64,000 bases of DNA from Halalkalibacter oceani (lineage in GTDB: Bacteria; Bacillota; Bacilli; Bacillales; Bacillaceae_D), in contig NZ_JAMBOL010000002.1 of assembly GCF_023715605.1 (NCBI RefSeq), positions 62,001 through 126,000 of the forward strand. The letters are read 5' to 3'. Position 1 is the stretch's first letter. Each line of letters begins with the position of its first letter. Position numbers and translations under genes: made by a program. The notes under the pieces are model-generated. The model was not told where the DNA came from, did not search any database, and was given only the letters and a program-made list of their open reading frames with translations. Below are positions 6,086-58,992 of the stretch, in pieces.

Positions 6086-6175
6086 GAGGGGGCTGGGATA
6101 AAAGGTTGTTTTTTACCTTTTCCCAGCCCCTTAAGCATTGCCACTAGGTCCAAAGCTAATTTTATCTCTAAGGTT
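6086..6175 (+). repeat. dispersed 3' element, copy D (internally deleted)
   Basis: Hairpin GGGGCTGGG...CCCAGCCCC (6088-6130) followed by TTAAGCATTGCC, AGGTCCAAAGCTA and a degenerate tail. Compared with the full element it lacks everything from AATGAGCGG to the base before CATTGCC, that is, the two inner helices. It lies sense to ykuV, 20 bases after its stop. Confidence 0.8.
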
Positions 6176-6922: not shown

Positions 6923-6930
6923 AGAGAGAA

Positions 6931-7040
6931 AAGAGCTTGAGACAAAACTAGCTTTGGACTTTAAAAGATCGTGGCGGTTCCGCTCATTGCTTAGAGAGGC
7001 TGGGAAAAAGGTCAAAAAACAACCTATTGTCCCAGCCTCC
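6931..7040 (-). repeat. dispersed 3' element, copy E (inner helix deleted)
   Basis: Minus-strand copy, downstream of and sense to rnjA, in the convergent gap with the amidase. Read on the minus strand: hairpin GGCTGGGAC.../...CCCAGCCTCT, AAGCAATGAGCGGAACC, GCCACGATCTTTTAAAG, then directly GTCCAAAGCTAG and CTCAAGCTCTT. The inner hairpin and GTGGC...GCCATTGCC arm of the full element are missing as one block. Confidence 0.85.
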
Positions 7041-7062
7041 TTTGGCGTGAAGCTATGCTGCT

Positions 7063-10090: not shown

Positions 10091-10178
10091 AAACGAGGCG
10101 GTCTTTAAGAGTTGAATGGTAAAAGGCAAAATGCAGCGGCTTCATTCGTAAAGCCCGTAACGGGGAAATGCTCGGTAT

Positions 10179-10351
10179 AAAGAGACTGGGACAATAAGGT
10201 TGTTTTTGACCTTTTTCCCAGCCTCTCTAAGCAATGAGCGGAACCGCCCCGATCTTTTAAAGCCCGTTGTGAGTGGGTTTCTCACAACGGCCTTGTGGCG
10301 TGTGAAGCCATTGCCAGTAGGTCCAAAGCTAGTTTTGTCTCAAGCTCTTTT
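10179..10351 (+). repeat. dispersed 3' element, copy A (full length, slightly decayed)
   Basis: About 170 nt, sense to ykrA and in the convergent gap with def. Order: hairpin 10181-10228, GCAATGAGCGG, the 13-base inner stem CCCGTTGTGAG/CTCACAACGG with one mismatch, GTGGCG, GCCATTGCC, AGGTCCAAAGCTAG, CTCAAGCTCTTT. The GCCAC helix has changed to GCCCC, so two helices each carry one mismatch. Ends AAAGAG and CTCTTT are short inverted repeats. Confidence 0.9.
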
Positions 10352-10365
10352 TAATACGAGGTTCT

Positions 10366-18365: not shown

Positions 18366-18429
18366 CTTGAGACTAAACAGGTTAAGGGCTGGGCAAAAGG
18401 GTGAAAAACAACCTTTTGCCCAGCCCCTT
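18364..18429 (-). repeat. dispersed 3' element, copy L (hairpin plus tail)
   Basis: Minus-strand copy downstream of and sense to the lipoprotein at 18442. Read on the minus strand: hairpin GGGGCTGGGCAAAAGG...CCCAGCCC, then directly the terminal module GTCTCAAGCT. The central helices are absent. Confidence 0.75.
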
Positions 18430-18441
18430 GCAGGTAAGACT

Positions 18442-23349: not shown

Positions 23350-23378
23350 TTGACAGGTGAATTAGTGTGTACTATTAT
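23350..23378 (+). promoter_or_regulatory. sigma-A promoter of SR1
   Basis: TTGACA (23350-23355), 17 bases, TATTAT (23373-23378), a near-consensus promoter; start near 23385. Confidence 0.85.
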
Positions 23379-23385
23379 AAATGTA

Positions 23386-23399
23386 ATGAAACGCTTTCA
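23386..23399 (+). promoter_or_regulatory. cre site (CcpA operator) at the SR1 start
   Basis: ATGAAACGCTTTCA matches the catabolite-responsive element consensus at all fixed positions and covers the predicted transcription start, where CcpA binding would repress initiation. In B. subtilis SR1 is repressed under glycolytic conditions by CcpN and also by CcpA. Confidence 0.75.
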
Positions 23400-23425
23400 A
23401 AAAAAGCATAAAGGGGATGCCGATA

Positions 23426-23554
23426 ATGGGTACAATTATTTGCCAATCTTGCAACAAGACGATCGACGTATTTGAAGGTGAAAAAGTGATGACACTTTAT
23501 GCAAAAGGGAACGGATGCGTACACTGTAAGACAGCTGATAAGAAGAATAAATAA
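23426..23554 (+). CDS. GapA-binding peptide SR1P
   Basis: A 42-residue peptide starting MGTIICQSCNKTIDVFEGEK and ending CVHCKTADKKNK. The opening MGTI-CQ-C, the VFEGEKVMTLY block and the closing CxxC match the SR1P family, which in B. subtilis binds GapA and stimulates RNase J1. The two CxxC pairs could bind zinc. It is too short for routine ORF calling. AAAGGGGATG precedes the ATG. It lies next to speA as in B. subtilis, and its own promoter and cre site imply that it is switched off by good carbon sources. Confidence 0.88.
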   Translation: MGTIICQSCNKTIDVFEGEKVMTLYAKGNGCVHCKTADKKNK

Positions 23555-23557
23555 AAA

Positions 23558-23665
23558 AAGGGGCTGGGCAAAAGGTTGTTTTTCTACCTTTTCCCAGCCC
23601 CTTAAGCAATGTATCGAATTGCCACGGAGTGAAAGCTAGTTTTGTCTCAAGCTTTTTATGCGGTG
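23558..23665 (+). repeat. dispersed 3' element, copy F (SR1 terminator plus shortened element)
   Basis: Hairpin GGGGCTGGGCAAAAGG...CCTTTTCCCAGCCCC, then AAGCAATG, ATTGCCACGG, AAAGCTAGTTTTGTCTC and AAGCTTTTT. The inner helices are replaced by a short divergent piece. It is sense to SR1P, immediately after its stop, and probably ends that RNA. Confidence 0.8.
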
Positions 23666-26603: not shown

Positions 26604-26712
26604 AAAGAGGAGCTTCGGACCTATTGGCAAGGGATTCACAACGAGGCCTTCAGCAGCTTCCTCATTGCTTAAAGGCTGGGCAGAAGGTAAAAACCTTAGA
26701 CCCAGCCTTCTC
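26604..26712 (-). repeat. dispersed 3' element, copy J (diverged, minus strand)
   Basis: Minus-strand copy, sense to yktB. It reads hairpin GGCTGGGTC...CCCAGCC, TTAAGCAATGAGG, then diverged sequence and a recognisable TTGCCAATAGGTCC, GAAGCTCCTCTTTT end. Only some 60-70 percent of the central part matches by eye. Confidence 0.65.
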
Positions 26713-27760: not shown

Positions 27761-27763
27761 GAA

Positions 27764-27935
27764 AGAGAGGCTGGGACAAAGGTTGTTTTTTACCTTTGTC
27801 CCAGCCTCTCTAAGCAATGAGCGGAACCGCCACGATCTTTTAAAGCCCGTTGTGAGTGGGTTTCTCACAACGGGCTTGTGGCGTGTGAAGCCATTGCCAG
27901 TAGGTCCAAAGCTAGTTTTGTCACAAGCTCTTTGC
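27764..27935 (+). repeat. dispersed 3' element, copy B (best-preserved full copy)
   Basis: The reference copy, 172 nt, sense to the small gene before it. Helices: GGCTGGGACAAAGG/CCTTTGTCCCAGCC (27769-27806 region); GCAATG with CATTGC; GCCAC with GTGGC; and the perfect 13-base AGCCCGTTGTGAG/CTCACAACGGGCT with loop TGGGTTT; then AGGTCCAAAGCTAG and CACAAGCTCTTT. The ends AAAGAG and CTCTTT are complementary, so the whole element can close into a multibranched fold. No U-tail follows the first hairpin. Confidence 0.92.
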
Positions 27936-40181: not shown

Positions 40182-40229
40182 AAGCCGGAGGCAAAAGGTT
40201 GTTTTTTACCTTTTGTCTCTGGCTTTTTT
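40182..40229 (+). terminator. terminator of pycA (hairpin relative of the repeat family)
   Basis: AAGCCGGAGGCAAAAGGT pairs with ACCTTTTGTCTCTGGCTT through two wobble pairs, with a GTTTTTT-containing loop like the repeat hairpins, and a T-run follows. The rest of the 311-base gap to ctaA has no gene. Confidence 0.85.
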
Positions 40230-47366: not shown

Positions 47367-47419
47367 TCAAAGCAGTGCATCACCCATTGGAGGTAGCTGA
47401 GTTCGGTGTAAATGAAAGA

Positions 47420-47457
47420 GGCTGGGCAAAAAGGTTGTTTTTTCCTTTTGCCCAGCC
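47420..47457 (+). repeat. hairpin-only relative of the dispersed element, copy I
   Basis: GGCTGGGCAAAAAGG pairs with CCTTTTGCCCAGCC; the loop carries GGTTGTTTTTT. It lies in the convergent gap between the DUF420 gene and the AI-2E-like gene and could stop both. Confidence 0.8.
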
Positions 47458-47462
47458 CTTTC

Positions 47463-49868: not shown

Positions 49869-50942
49869 TTGAAAAAGGGTTTTGTTATTGGAATCGGCAT
49901 CTGTTTATTTGTTTTTCTGATCGCTTTTGAGACGATGTTTGCACAGCAAATCAAGGAATGGTTTAGCTCTTCTTCAAGGGTGACAGAGGTTGTTGAGGAG
50001 CCTGAAGAGCAAACTGGAGATAGAGAAGAGCTTTTAGCAGCAGAGGAAAATCACAGCCCGAGCATAGATGCGATTGGCCTGATCGGAATGCGGGAGGAGG
50101 AAGTAAGACAGCAGTATGGTGAGCCCGCGCGAATAGATCCTTCCGCCTATGGTTATGATTGGTGGATTTATCCTTTATCCGAGTTGTCCTACATGCAGGT
50201 TGGGATTGACGATGCGCAAGTAGTGACGGCCTTTATTGCTGGTGATCTTCTGGGGGATTTAGGCTTTCTCGACAGGGGGGAGTCGTACGCTGAAATAAAC
50301 GAAAGTCTCTCGTTTGCTAAAGAAGTCGATGTGAACTGGAGCTTTCGTTTTCAGCTGTCGGACGAAGATTTGCAGATGCGTCCGCTCATTCAACTGGAAG
50401 ATCAATGGCTTCAGCTTTATTTTGATACATTTACCGGAGAGCTATCAAGTGTCCGGCTCCTGACGGAAGAAGTTCTGCTTTTGCAGCGCCCTTATTCGGT
50501 TACCTATCGTGGAGATTTACCTGACGCTCCTGAGCTGACGGCCCAACAATGGGCGGAGATTGAAGAAGGCGAGGCGAGACAAATTTTTGATCTGACAAAC
50601 TTGATCCGGCACCAGCACGGGCTCGCTCCAGTGGAATGGGATGCCGAGGTGGCGAACGTCGCTTATTTGCACAGCAAGGATATGAATCAGGGAAATTACT
50701 TTTCCCATACATCTCCCACTTACGGCGAGCTAGGCGACCGTTTCGAAAATGGAGGGATTCCCTTTAGAGCGGTTGGAGAGAATATAGCAGCGAAGTATGT
50801 AGACGGAATAGCCGCCGTCGAAGGCTGGCTGAACAGCGAAGGACACCGGGCGACACTGCTCCACGAAGAATTCACCCACCTCGGCGTCGGCGTCTATCAG
50901 GATTACTACACCCAAAACTTCATGACCCCGTTTGAATTATAA
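49869..50942 (+). CDS. ylbC: CAP/SCP-domain secreted protein YlbC
   Basis: 357 residues. An uncleaved signal or anchor (FVIGIGICLFVFLIAFETMF) and an acidic spacer are followed by a CAP-associated N-terminal domain (about 65-210, IGLIGMREEEVRQQYGEP, ISPL-like WWIYPLSELSYMQVGID) and a C-terminal CAP domain with HQHGLAPVEWDAEVANVA, HSKDMNQGNYFSHTSP and VEGWLNSEGHRATLL. CAP proteins act outside the cell. The start is TTG, 6 bases after AAAGGAGAGG. Matches B. subtilis YlbC; ylbA and ylbB are absent here. Confidence 0.88.
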   Translation: MKKGFVIGIGICLFVFLIAFETMFAQQIKEWFSSSSRVTEVVEEPEEQTGDREELLAAEENHSPSIDAIGLIGMREEEVRQQYGEPARIDPSAYGYDWWIYPLSELSYMQVGIDDAQVVTAFIAGDLLGDLGFLDRGESYAEINESLSFAKEVDVNWSFRFQLSDEDLQMRPLIQLEDQWLQLYFDTFTGELSSVRLLTEEVLLLQRPYSVTYRGDLPDAPELTAQQWAEIEEGEARQIFDLTNLIRHQHGLAPVEWDAEVANVAYLHSKDMNQGNYFSHTSPTYGELGDRFENGGIPFRAVGENIAAKYVDGIAAVEGWLNSEGHRATLLHEEFTHLGVGVYQDYYTQNFMTPFEL

Positions 50943-51018
50943 GAGGCTGTGACAAAAGGTTGTTTTTTGACCTTTTTCCCAGCCTCTCTAAGCAATGAGC
51001 GAAGCCATTGCCGTGGGC
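50941..51018 (+). repeat. dispersed 3' element, copy G (inner helices deleted)
   Basis: Sense to ylbC, starting on its stop codon. Hairpin GAGGCTGTGAC...CCCAGCCTC, then TAAGCAATGAGCG joined directly to AAGCCATTGCC, then a truncated end. The deletion removes the GCCAC/GTGGC helix and the inner 13-base hairpin as one unit while keeping GCAATG/CATTGC. Confidence 0.82.
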
Positions 51019-55682: not shown

Positions 55683-55686
55683 AGAA

Positions 55687-55852
55687 AGGAGGCTGTGCCA
55701 AAAGGTTGGTTTTACCTTTTGGCACAGCCTCTAAGCAATGAGCGGAACCGCCACGATTTGTTAAAGCCCGTTGTGAGTGGGTTTCTCACAACGGGCTTGT
55801 GGCGTGTGGAGCCATTGCCAGTAGGTCCAAAGCTAGTTTTGGACCAAGACCT
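55687..55852 (+). repeat. dispersed 3' element, copy C (full length)
   Basis: Sense to the MFS gene, in the convergent gap. First hairpin GGCTGTGCCAAAAGG/CCTTTTGGCACAGCC (55690-55731 region), with two changed pairs relative to copy B, both compensated. GCCAC/GTGGC and the inner 13-base hairpin are intact, and AGGTCC pairs with a changed GGACC downstream, which copy B cannot do. Confidence 0.92.
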
Positions 55853-55892
55853 TGTTTTTATAGTAGGAAAGCAAAGACTCTTTGTTTTTTGG

Positions 55893-56282: not shown

Positions 56283-56354
56283 TGTTATGCCTACTTTCCA
56301 TTTAGATTCTAGCTGAAAATGTAGCAGACTTTGGCGGTTTTGTCGAGAAAAAAA

Positions 56355-56412
56355 CCTCACAAGGATGTCCTTGTGAGGTGCCTATATGCATATATTCATA
56401 TGCTTGTAGGCT
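56355..56412 (-). ncRNA. two tandem hairpins with terminator, leader or small-RNA candidate
   Basis: On the minus strand: GCCTA.../...TAGGC with GCATAT/ATATGC inside, then the 11-base perfect hairpin CCTCACAAGGA/TCCTTGTGAGG, then seven U residues (56348-56354). It lies 66 bases upstream of the minus-strand gene at 56282, so it could be an attenuator or the end of a small RNA. The rest of the 343-base gap has no gene. Confidence 0.5.
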
Positions 56413-56625
56413 ATGGGAGAGGAGAAACCGGAGGAAGAACTTATGGGGAAACGTAAGCCTTCTCCGCGGTTGTCGTAACACTAACAAGAGTGCTACTACT
56501 GTCAGTATGGACGAATTCGGCTTGCTTCATACATAAAAATCAAATGAGAAACAGAAGAGGATAATGACTCTTTTTTATGGTAGGATGAAAGAGGTAATTT
56601 CGGAGAAGAAGCAGGTGAAGATGGT

Positions 56626-57696: not shown

Positions 57697-57768
57697 GAGA
57701 GGCTGGGTCAAAAGGTTGTTTTTTTACCTTTTGCCCAGCCTTGCTAGTTTTGTCTCAAGCTTTTCTCT
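57697..57768 (+). repeat. dispersed 3' element, copy H (hairpin plus tail)
   Basis: Sense to coaD, in the convergent gap with ylbJ. GAGAGGCTGGGTCAAAAGG... and CCTTTTGCCCAGCC, then directly TTGCTAGTTTTGTCTCAAGC. The central helices are absent. It begins 18 bases after the coaD stop. Confidence 0.8.
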
Positions 57769-58992
57769 TTATTCGCTCTTCAATGTCCGCGACGCCGTCA
57801 ACAAAATGAAAATGACAAGCATCAAAAGGGTAAAGACGGAGCCATATTGACTGAACGGCTGCCATATCGTTTGAATCCACTGTCCGGACGGAGCGTCGAG
57901 AAAGACGGGAAGGCTTGGGCGAAAGTCGGAGCCTGCTTGCTGATTTACGTAAAGCGGCTTCCACAGGAGAAAGACGAGAACCGCTGCGAAAAAGCCGTGA
58001 AAGATGCGGGCGATAAAAAACGGTTTAAAGCGAATGTCAGTTTCCGCTAAAATGCTGGCGACCTGAGCCTGGATCGAAAATCCGCTGAAAGCGAGAAAGA
58101 AGCTCGTGACGATGATTTGCTGCAGCAGCTCGGTATTGGTCACTTGACTGACCATCTGCGCCCCTAATGTAATTTCAAACAAGCCGGAAATGAGCGGAAT
58201 GCTTAAATCGTTTGGTAAATGAAAAAAAGCGAGTATAATAGAACAAAATGAAGCTAATACGGCCTGAATTCCGACCAGGCTCAAGATTTTGTTCAATACG
58301 GAAAACAAAATAATAAATCCGCCGATCATTAAGAGCGTCCGCACTGAAGAATGAACAGCATCGCCAAGCAGCTTGCCGATTGGCCGGCCGTCGCGGATCC
58401 GTTCTTCATGCATCAGCTTTAGCGCATGCGACAGGCCGCGGAAGGGAGGGCGCTCGACGGAATGCTTGGCCTCTTCATCGCGGCCGTGGAACCGCATTAA
58501 CAGTCCGACGCAAATGTTGCCGATGTAATGCGCGAGGGCAAGGACAATGCCTAACGAGGCGTTGTGAAAAAAGCCGACCGCGATCGCGCCGAAAATAAAT
58601 AATGGATTGGATGAGTTTGTGAAGCAGACGAGCCGCTCGGCTTCAATTTTTGTCACTTTTTTTTCCTGGCGCAGGCGGGCCGTAATTTTGGCTCCGGCCG
58701 GGTTTCCTGAAGCAAGTCCCATGGCCCAGACGAATCCACCGACGCCGGGAACCCGGAAAAAAGGCCGCATCAACGGTTCAAGCAAGGTCCCGATAAAGGT
58801 AACGACGCCAAAGCCGATTAACAGTTCAGAAACGATAAAAAAGGGCAGCAAAGAGGGAAAAACGACATCCCACCACATCTCCATACCACGAATCGAAGCA
58901 TCGAGCGATTCCTTTGGATAGAGCATTAACGAAGCTGCTAATATCATGCTTACCATGGCAAGCAAAAAGGTTTTGGTGATGGATAAGGACAT
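57769..58992 (-). CDS. ylbJ: sporulation integral membrane protein YlbJ
   Basis: Nucleoside-transporter-gate-like membrane protein of 407 residues with about eight helices. MWWDVVFPSLLPFFIVSELL, GLASGNPAGAKITARLRQ, TNSSNPLFIFGAIAVGFFHN and FFLAFSGFSIQAQVASILAE are characteristic of YlbJ, a sigma-E-dependent gene needed for heat-resistant spores in B. subtilis. AAGGAGG lies 10 bases before the ATG. Divergent from ylbK, convergent with coaD. Confidence 0.93.
   Translation of the reverse strand: MSLSITKTFLLAMVSMILAASLMLYPKESLDASIRGMEMWWDVVFPSLLPFFIVSELLIGFGVVTFIGTLLEPLMRPFFRVPGVGGFVWAMGLASGNPAGAKITARLRQEKKVTKIEAERLVCFTNSSNPLFIFGAIAVGFFHNASLGIVLALAHYIGNICVGLLMRFHGRDEEAKHSVERPPFRGLSHALKLMHEERIRDGRPIGKLLGDAVHSSVRTLLMIGGFIILFSVLNKILSLVGIQAVLASFCSIILAFFHLPNDLSIPLISGLFEITLGAQMVSQVTNTELLQQIIVTSFFLAFSGFSIQAQVASILAETDIRFKPFFIARIFHGFFAAVLVFLLWKPLYVNQQAGSDFRPSLPVFLDAPSGQWIQTIWQPFSQYGSVFTLLMLVIFILLTASRTLKSE

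Follow-up and report, generated by a model that had tools for sequence, protein, structure and literature searches.

According to the consulted parts of two reports, the staphylococcal elements IS1272 and TnSha1 target terminator hairpins, insert in both orientations, and remove the hairpin wholly or partly without generating a target duplication (PMC4923244, PMC5678879). Models of stem-loop insertion, as given in the consulted parts of the second report, include other outcomes, such as duplication of the loop (PMC5678879). Structured repeats that resemble the element described here have also been reported in bacilli. The repeat bcr1 of the Bacillus cereus group is like it in length (approximately 150-170 nt), in its tens of copies and in being structured (PMC6542083, PMC2267715), but it is reportedly confined to that group and tied to a TTTAT motif (PMC6542083). 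Bhal-1 of B. halodurans (74 nt, 36 copies) is likewise a structured repeat of an alkaliphilic bacillus (PMC2267715). Both repeats were compared by description only, as given in parts of these sources. In the open-access PMC literature, surveyed by titles and the beginnings of abstracts, we found no description of the present element or of an IS1182 MITE.

The window, by which we mean the whole stretch of 64,000 nucleotides of Halalkalibacter oceani DNA that was analyzed, had been the subject of a preliminary description that reported a dispersed, modular structured element of approximately 170 nt at positions 27764-27935. This element is real, as the repeat search and the fold both show (copy B, Table 1). 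Copy B has the length of the 172-nt element and is composed of a left hairpin of approximately 48 nt, a core of 86 nt and a right end of approximately 38 nt, and the helices previously attributed to it, namely the first hairpin, GCAATG/CATTGC, GCCAC/GTGGC and the 13-bp inner hairpin, are all found in the RNA fold. The ten copies listed with it are indeed related and modular, but they are unequal: A, B and C are complete, and the others are truncated or reduced to a lone hairpin. In the repeat search of the window, A, B and C form one 172-nt family (identity to A: B, 92%; C, 77%), and shorter repeat families cover most of the remaining copies. In copies D, E, F, G and J, the middle is partly or mostly missing, and in the window the covariance model of the core has no match beyond A, B, C and a stub at G. 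An SR1 sRNA match (Rfam RF02376, 58 bits; window 23376-23603) extends into copy F, and the 3′ hairpin of this match is the left-end hairpin of the element both in this genome (G000) and in the sister species G007.

Table 1. Copies and parts of the element in the window (positions are counted from the first letter of the window).
Feature	Position	Strand	Evidence
Copy B, complete element (left-end hairpin, core and right end)	27762..27935	+	Repeat search, fold, another hairpin at the orthologous G007 site
Copy B, left-end hairpin; 5′ arm is the left terminal inverted repeat GAGGCTGGGACAAA	27764..27811	+	
Copy B, structured core: P1 GCAATG/CATTGC, internal loop, P3 GCCAC/GTGGC, P4 inner hairpin, loop TGGGTTT	27812..27897	+	Covariance model (98.9 bits), covariation
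Copy B, spacer and right terminal inverted repeat AAAGCTAGTTTTGTCACAAGCTCTTT	27898..27935	+	25/28 identical to the L048 right end
Copy A, complete, within the 3′ arm of a native terminator; core 10229-10314	10178..10353	+	
Copy C, complete; core 55733-55818	55685..55857	+	
Copy G, truncated: left hairpin, core start, CATTGC	50939..51011	+	
Copy E, internal deletion: right end 6929-6959, left hairpin, first part of core	6929..7043	-	
Copy D, left hairpin fused to core end and right end	6086..6171	+	
Copy F, left hairpin, reduced middle and right end, located where the SR1 sRNA gene ends (3′); found in G007 as well	23556..23659	+	
Copy J, left hairpin, core start, core end with spacer; most of core missing	26611..26711	-	
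Copy L, lone left-end-type hairpin	18382..18430	-	
Copy H, left hairpin fused directly to right end	57697..57773	+	
Lone left-end-type hairpin, absent from the earlier list	47414..47461	+	
Lone hairpin with inner AAAAGGTTGTTTTTTACCTTTT in common and a different outer stem, absent from the earlier list	40183..40224	+	Repeat search

The ends of the element are imperfect terminal inverted repeats, AAAGAGGCTGGGACAAAAGG and AAAGAGCTTGAGACAAAACTAGC, and the complementary AAAGAG/CTCTTT forms their outermost part. To judge from sequence similarity, the element has the type of ends found in IS1272-like insertion sequences of the IS1182 family. An intact IS1182-family transposase of 530 aa (416 bits to NF033551; cut-off 270) occurs in another genome of the genus, G003, and the element that carries it (L048, 115-1938) ends in GGGGCTGGGACAAAACC and GAGGCTGGGACAAAACTAGC; its right end is identical to the right end of our element at 25 of 28 nt. 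Relatives of this transposase were found in 2647 plasmid records at 1e-5, and 18 of 20 among the plasmid matches listed are annotated as IS1182 family. It is 52-53% identical over the full length to Staphylococcus plasmid transposases among the matches listed (52% for those of S. haemolyticus and S. epidermidis, which we take to be IS1272 itself). The five plasmid insertion sequence loci that were compared have ends of the same kind. Three carry GAG(G/A)CTGGGACAAAA-like ends with nearly the same letters, a Terribacillus locus has the end GAGAGCGGGACAAAA, and an S. equorum locus has the ends AAAGAGCTTGGGACATAA and AAAGAGTCTGAGACATAA. The earlier view of a dispersed element spread by duplication or slow transposition is supported as to dispersal and transposition.

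The 172-nt element contains no transposase gene. Our search for a live IS1182 helper in G000 returned decayed pieces only (best 35 bits), and profile searches of the same genome with PF13751 and PF01609 yielded one decayed IS1182-like piece, plus other transposases. Because a MITE can outlive its helper, a live helper in the same genome is not strictly required. The core does not belong to the IS1182 copies examined, as it has two matches within 36 IS1182 transposase loci, both at loci with decayed transposase pieces. By eye, similar transposase debris adjoins copies L016 and L026, and a further repeat family with GACTCCTGCGGGA lies beside IS1182 relics, next to the second element type described below (L032, L055, L062, L063 and L074).

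Our test for target duplication drew on 121 core instances, of which 37 have GGCCACTGAAAAAG-type ends and 35 are of the GGCTGGGACAAAA type found in the window; 49 of neither type were left out. None of the 35 window-type copies, which come from G000 and G007, is flanked by a target duplication of 6 bp or more (null 0.5%). An exact direct repeat of at least 6 nt is present at the ends in 25 of the 37 GGCCACTGAAAAAG-type instances, compared with 0.8% for mismatched flank pairs, and 20 of these 25 repeats are 8 or 9 nt in length. The core is common to elements with different ends and different insertion signatures. The loop-duplication outcome of the stem-loop models might suit the GGCCACTGAAAAAG-type elements. 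The window-type copies have an A-rich left flank (2.8 of 5) and a T-rich right flank (3.7 of 5, with at least three T in the first four positions in 28 of 35), as would be expected of leftover terminator tracts. Because some insertion sequence ends begin with AAAGAG or AAAAGAG, the ends may account for part of these A- and T-tracts.

A second core subfamily was observed in G000, with a GTAATG/CATTAC outer stem and AAGCTGCTGAAAAAG ends (e.g., G000:C47:388606-388694 and 416917-417005). In three of the 20 regions compared (L303, L308 and L316, all G000), a window-type copy has an element of this subfamily inserted in its inner hairpin, each time at the same position and with the duplication GTTGTGAG (one mismatch in L303). 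The position of these insertions suggests that the second subfamily also targets hairpins.

The comparison with the sister species G007 covered 1.99 Mb, in which both flanks were present for nine of the 30 best G000 copies but not for the other 21; copy C provided a tenth site, and all sites were read by eye from pairwise alignments. At five of the ten comparable sites (B, A, C, L024 and L025), G007 has another hairpin in place of the element. The copy B site is the clearest, with a GC-rich hairpin of different outer sequence and a CCCGGGGC outer stem between the same flanks. At the L024 site, an A-tract and a T-tract flank an unrelated hairpin in G007, and the element's own right terminal repeat is truncated there. 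At the copy A site, G007 has a native terminator, the 5′ arm of which survives in G000 beside the element; at the copy C site, it has another hairpin and unrelated extra sequence; and at the L025 site, it has a left-end-type hairpin. The inner part of the G007 hairpin at B and L025 is related to the left hairpin of the element, and loss of the rest of the element in G007 is an alternative that retains some probability for these two sites.

The remaining sites are of several kinds. At L020, the element lies in opposite orientations in the two species, with no bare hairpin. No replacement was seen at four of the ten sites (L002, L029, L016 and L022): L002 holds the same copy in both species, identical over 241 nt; G007 has a shorter relative of the element at L029; and L016 and L022 gave no readable comparison. 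In the reverse comparison, six of 53 G007 hits have a counterpart on the G000 contig, and two of these are full copies. One (C58:64826) faces an oppositely oriented partial copy in G000, and the other (C58:226242) faces a G000 stretch without the element.

Placement was assessed with our own simple codon-usage ORF caller across the whole 464.6-kb contig C47, with hits at E<1e-5. The 27 clusters on the contig lie in 14 convergent and 12 tandem gaps, with none in a divergent gap and one inside an ORF, whereas the background gaps of at least 60 nt number 35 convergent, 157 tandem and 43 divergent. The excess of convergent sites has a binomial p of 4e-6, and the shortage of divergent ones has a p of 0.005. 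Genome-wide, 13 of the 30 best copies are in convergent gaps (p 1e-4), 14 in tandem gaps, two in divergent gaps (p 0.08) and one inside a gene, so copies are rarely intragenic in either set (1/27 and 1/30). In tandem gaps, the sense orientation is more common than the antisense orientation among the 30 best copies (11 vs. 3, p 0.06) and on the contig (8 vs. 4, p 0.39); this bias is mild and not significant, and the orientation is not strict. The preliminary description had placed all ten of its copies 3′ of a gene in the sense direction. Our gap classes agree with those given for nine of the ten, with copy L below the E<1e-5 limit, and the convergent excess stands, but the two divergent copies and the intragenic one among the 30 best show that "always" at gene 3′ ends is too strong.

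We consider the element to be, very probably, a non-autonomous MITE of an IS1272-like member of the IS1182 family that replaces terminator hairpins. Three observations lead to this reading: the ends match those of intact IS1182 elements, typed copies lack a target duplication, and the sister species has hairpins in place of the element at five of ten comparable sites. A transposase of the IS1182 family, supplied in trans, would recognize the ends of the element, the ends would be joined at the foot of the hairpin (cruciform) of a transcription terminator, and the old terminator hairpin would be lost on insertion. The long hairpin with which the element itself starts may keep the gene end closed, so that insertions would be nearly harmless, and near-harmlessness would in turn explain both the copy number and the 3′-end placement. 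The choice of terminator hairpins as targets explains the placement at gene 3′ ends without any RNA function. The earlier attribution of this placement to a function as 3′-UTR RNA is not supported, given the IS1272/IS1182-type ends, the lack of target duplication and the hairpins at five of ten sister sites.

MITEs are short, carry no gene, have the terminal inverted repeats of a known transposase family and occur in dozens of copies. The present element shares these traits, since it is short and geneless, has terminal inverted repeats of an insertion sequence type, and exists in dozens of copies. Unlike MITEs in general, it produces no target duplication (window type), replaces hairpins, and has a core that is kept across genera and end types. 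As far as the consulted parts of the reports extend, it resembles IS1272 and TnSha1 in the kind of terminal repeat, the terminator-hairpin target, the hairpin deletion, the lack of duplication and the use of both orientations, but those elements measure 1945 bp and 3022 bp, whereas the element here measures 172 nt, has no gene and contains a conserved folded core (PMC4923244, PMC5678879). It represents a natural, high-copy record of stem-loop-replacing transposition, a process otherwise documented, within the parts of the literature consulted, for the staphylococcal IS1272 and TnSha1. It suggests that a mobile element causes turnover of host-gene terminators, even of the one belonging to a regulatory RNA (SR1). 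Furthermore, repeats at gene 3′ ends are explained without invoking an RNA function, and a covarying core is exposed whose role as RNA or DNA is directly testable.

The fold of copy B as RNA has a minimum free energy of -92.4 kcal/mol (z -10.7), and none of 200 shuffled sequences was as stable. In the RNAalifold consensus, the outer stem is longer, with GC/GC and RC/GY pairs flanking a GGA/GNA internal loop, beside which an A-U/G-C exchange is found in 14 sequences. Across 40 non-redundant sequences, 89.7% of the core cells are paired, compared with 80.9% in shuffles (0 of 500 as high) and 45% at most in slid controls, and 99 core cells are changed on both sides, compared with 32. A covariation test had been proposed in the preliminary description, and we applied a phylogeny-aware one of our own, R-scape-like, with a substitution-replacing null and 60 null alignments, in which the E-values are rough: three of 3570 column pairs reach E≤0.05, and all three are among the 27 structure pairs. 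The top five of the 3570 pairs all lie within the core structure, and the remaining 24 of the 27 structure pairs are above E 0.05. Changes on both sides were found in 26 of the 27 pairs, P1 included, among 116 model hits in an alignment fitted to the structure; because parts of P1 are fixed by the pattern scan, this stem is held invariant in alignments A1 and A2. The alignment of the inner hairpin is poor, with 79% of its cells paired. The conserved unpaired positions of the core are TTTTAA, TGGGTTT and GGA/GNA. The left hairpin is also kept by compensation, given that 35 of 40 left segments are below -15 kcal/mol despite widely differing outer stems.

The covariation supports the core fold as truly structured. 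A K-turn reading of the core stem was dropped on inspection by eye. The view that no named RNA family has this architecture agrees with the Rfam 15 scan of the window, which at the gathering score gave no match to the element except the SR1 overlap with copy F; for the copy B region at E≤1, it gave only hits below gathering, mostly microRNA hairpins. Elsewhere in the window, a ylbH leader RNA was matched at 56346-56469 (RF00516, 91 bits). The 86-nt core, which is without an Rfam match, covaries and occurs in many copies per genome, is the new part of this element.

Compensatory changes have preserved the core in several genera, and it is found together with two or more kinds of ends. In our view, its most likely role would be to aid the spread or the tolerance of the element, either as folded DNA or as RNA at the ends of transcripts. 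The structured-RNA idea survives only for the core, the conservation of which, in several families and with different sets of ends, calls for a function. If the element were a 3′-UTR RNA family, the core would be a functional RNA at transcript ends, acting in stability, termination or regulation, and mobility would only spread it. Such a role is in keeping with the covarying helices, the conservation of the unpaired TTTTAA, TGGGTTT and GGA/GNA, the retention of the core while the mobile ends change, its usual position directly 3′ of a hairpin (the 35 of 40 left segments below -15 kcal/mol) and the mild sense bias of 11 to 3. However, target choice already accounts for the placement, antisense copies occur, Rfam has no matching family, and an element needing a DNA cruciform would also yield covarying stems; we regard this explanation as unlikely. 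We are similarly doubtful of a wider proposal, in which the core would be an independent structured module rather than a by-product of the transposon, would have captured, or been captured by, several IS1182-type end sets of differing insertion chemistry (hairpin replacement or 8-9-bp duplication) with variable terminator hairpins, and would be maintained across five families for work at host transcript 3′ ends or as folded DNA guiding insertion.

The left hairpin raises questions of its own. It might be a mobile terminator that ends transcription and has been adopted by host genes, and its length and stability, its position between convergent genes, and the case of copy F, which provides the 3′ hairpin of the SR1 match in two species, make this a possibility to be taken seriously, if not one that we favor; no T-run follows the hairpin of copy B, and a terminator scan based on a simple consensus was empty there, which weighs little against this reading. 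The outer stems of the lone and truncated hairpins vary widely yet stay complementary, as might be the case if these hairpins were independent, convergent terminators and only the full copies were mobile. We consider this quite improbable, given that the inner AAAAGGTTGTTTTTTACCTTTT is common to the hairpins and that D, F and H also carry the right end. Finally, the size and copy number of the element are near those given for bcr1 in the consulted parts of its descriptions (PMC6542083, PMC2267715), which brings to mind a bcr1-like or REP-like repeat moved by site-specific recombination or a Y1 transposase. The terminal inverted repeats of the IS1182 kind, the hairpins found in place of the element and its occurrence outside the B. 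cereus group render such a mode of mobility extremely improbable.

The element is abundant in its own genome (G000, 4.47 Mb), with at least 40 separate copies, at least 33 of which cover 150 or more of the 172 nt. These are lower bounds, because the search with copy B scored 40 of 263 candidates and returned 45 matches, five of them secondary within other copies. The right-end motif has 91 matches in G000 at no more than three mismatches, compared with three for the reversed pattern. A covariance-model search, likewise proposed earlier, found the core at least 141 times in G000 at E≤1e-3 (150 of 1731 candidates scored) and in at least 12 of 150 sampled genomes of the order, its own included. 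The latter genomes belong to seven of 83 genera and to five families, and this count is also a lower bound, with 30 candidates scored per genome under stricter filters. The matches listed by a pattern scan for the core include Halalkalibacter, Evansella, Salipaludibacillus, Alkalihalobacillus deserti, Bacillus suaedae, B. solitudinis and a Bacillus MAG. No DNA relatives of copy B were found in the plasmid and phage collections at 1e-5.

Several unusual arrangements were encountered among these copies. Core units form tandem arrays, repeating every 115-150 nt or so, at L307 (G000:C36:219100-219900), L249 (G007), L149, L194, L208 and L209 and in G012, and the G007 array resembles that of L307. 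Three of the 40 scored copies (L025, L030 and G000:C28:106977-107011) have the inner hairpin in inverted orientation with respect to their other parts, an arrangement that strand switching at a cruciform could produce. The core at G000:C47:436695-436779 immediately follows a perfect hairpin of native appearance; it has no typed ends and occupies the same place in G000 and G007, which indicates that the core can sit without recognizable mobile ends. At L002 and L031, two species with 86-91% identity in the stretch compared share one copy and its flanks without any difference over 241 nt.
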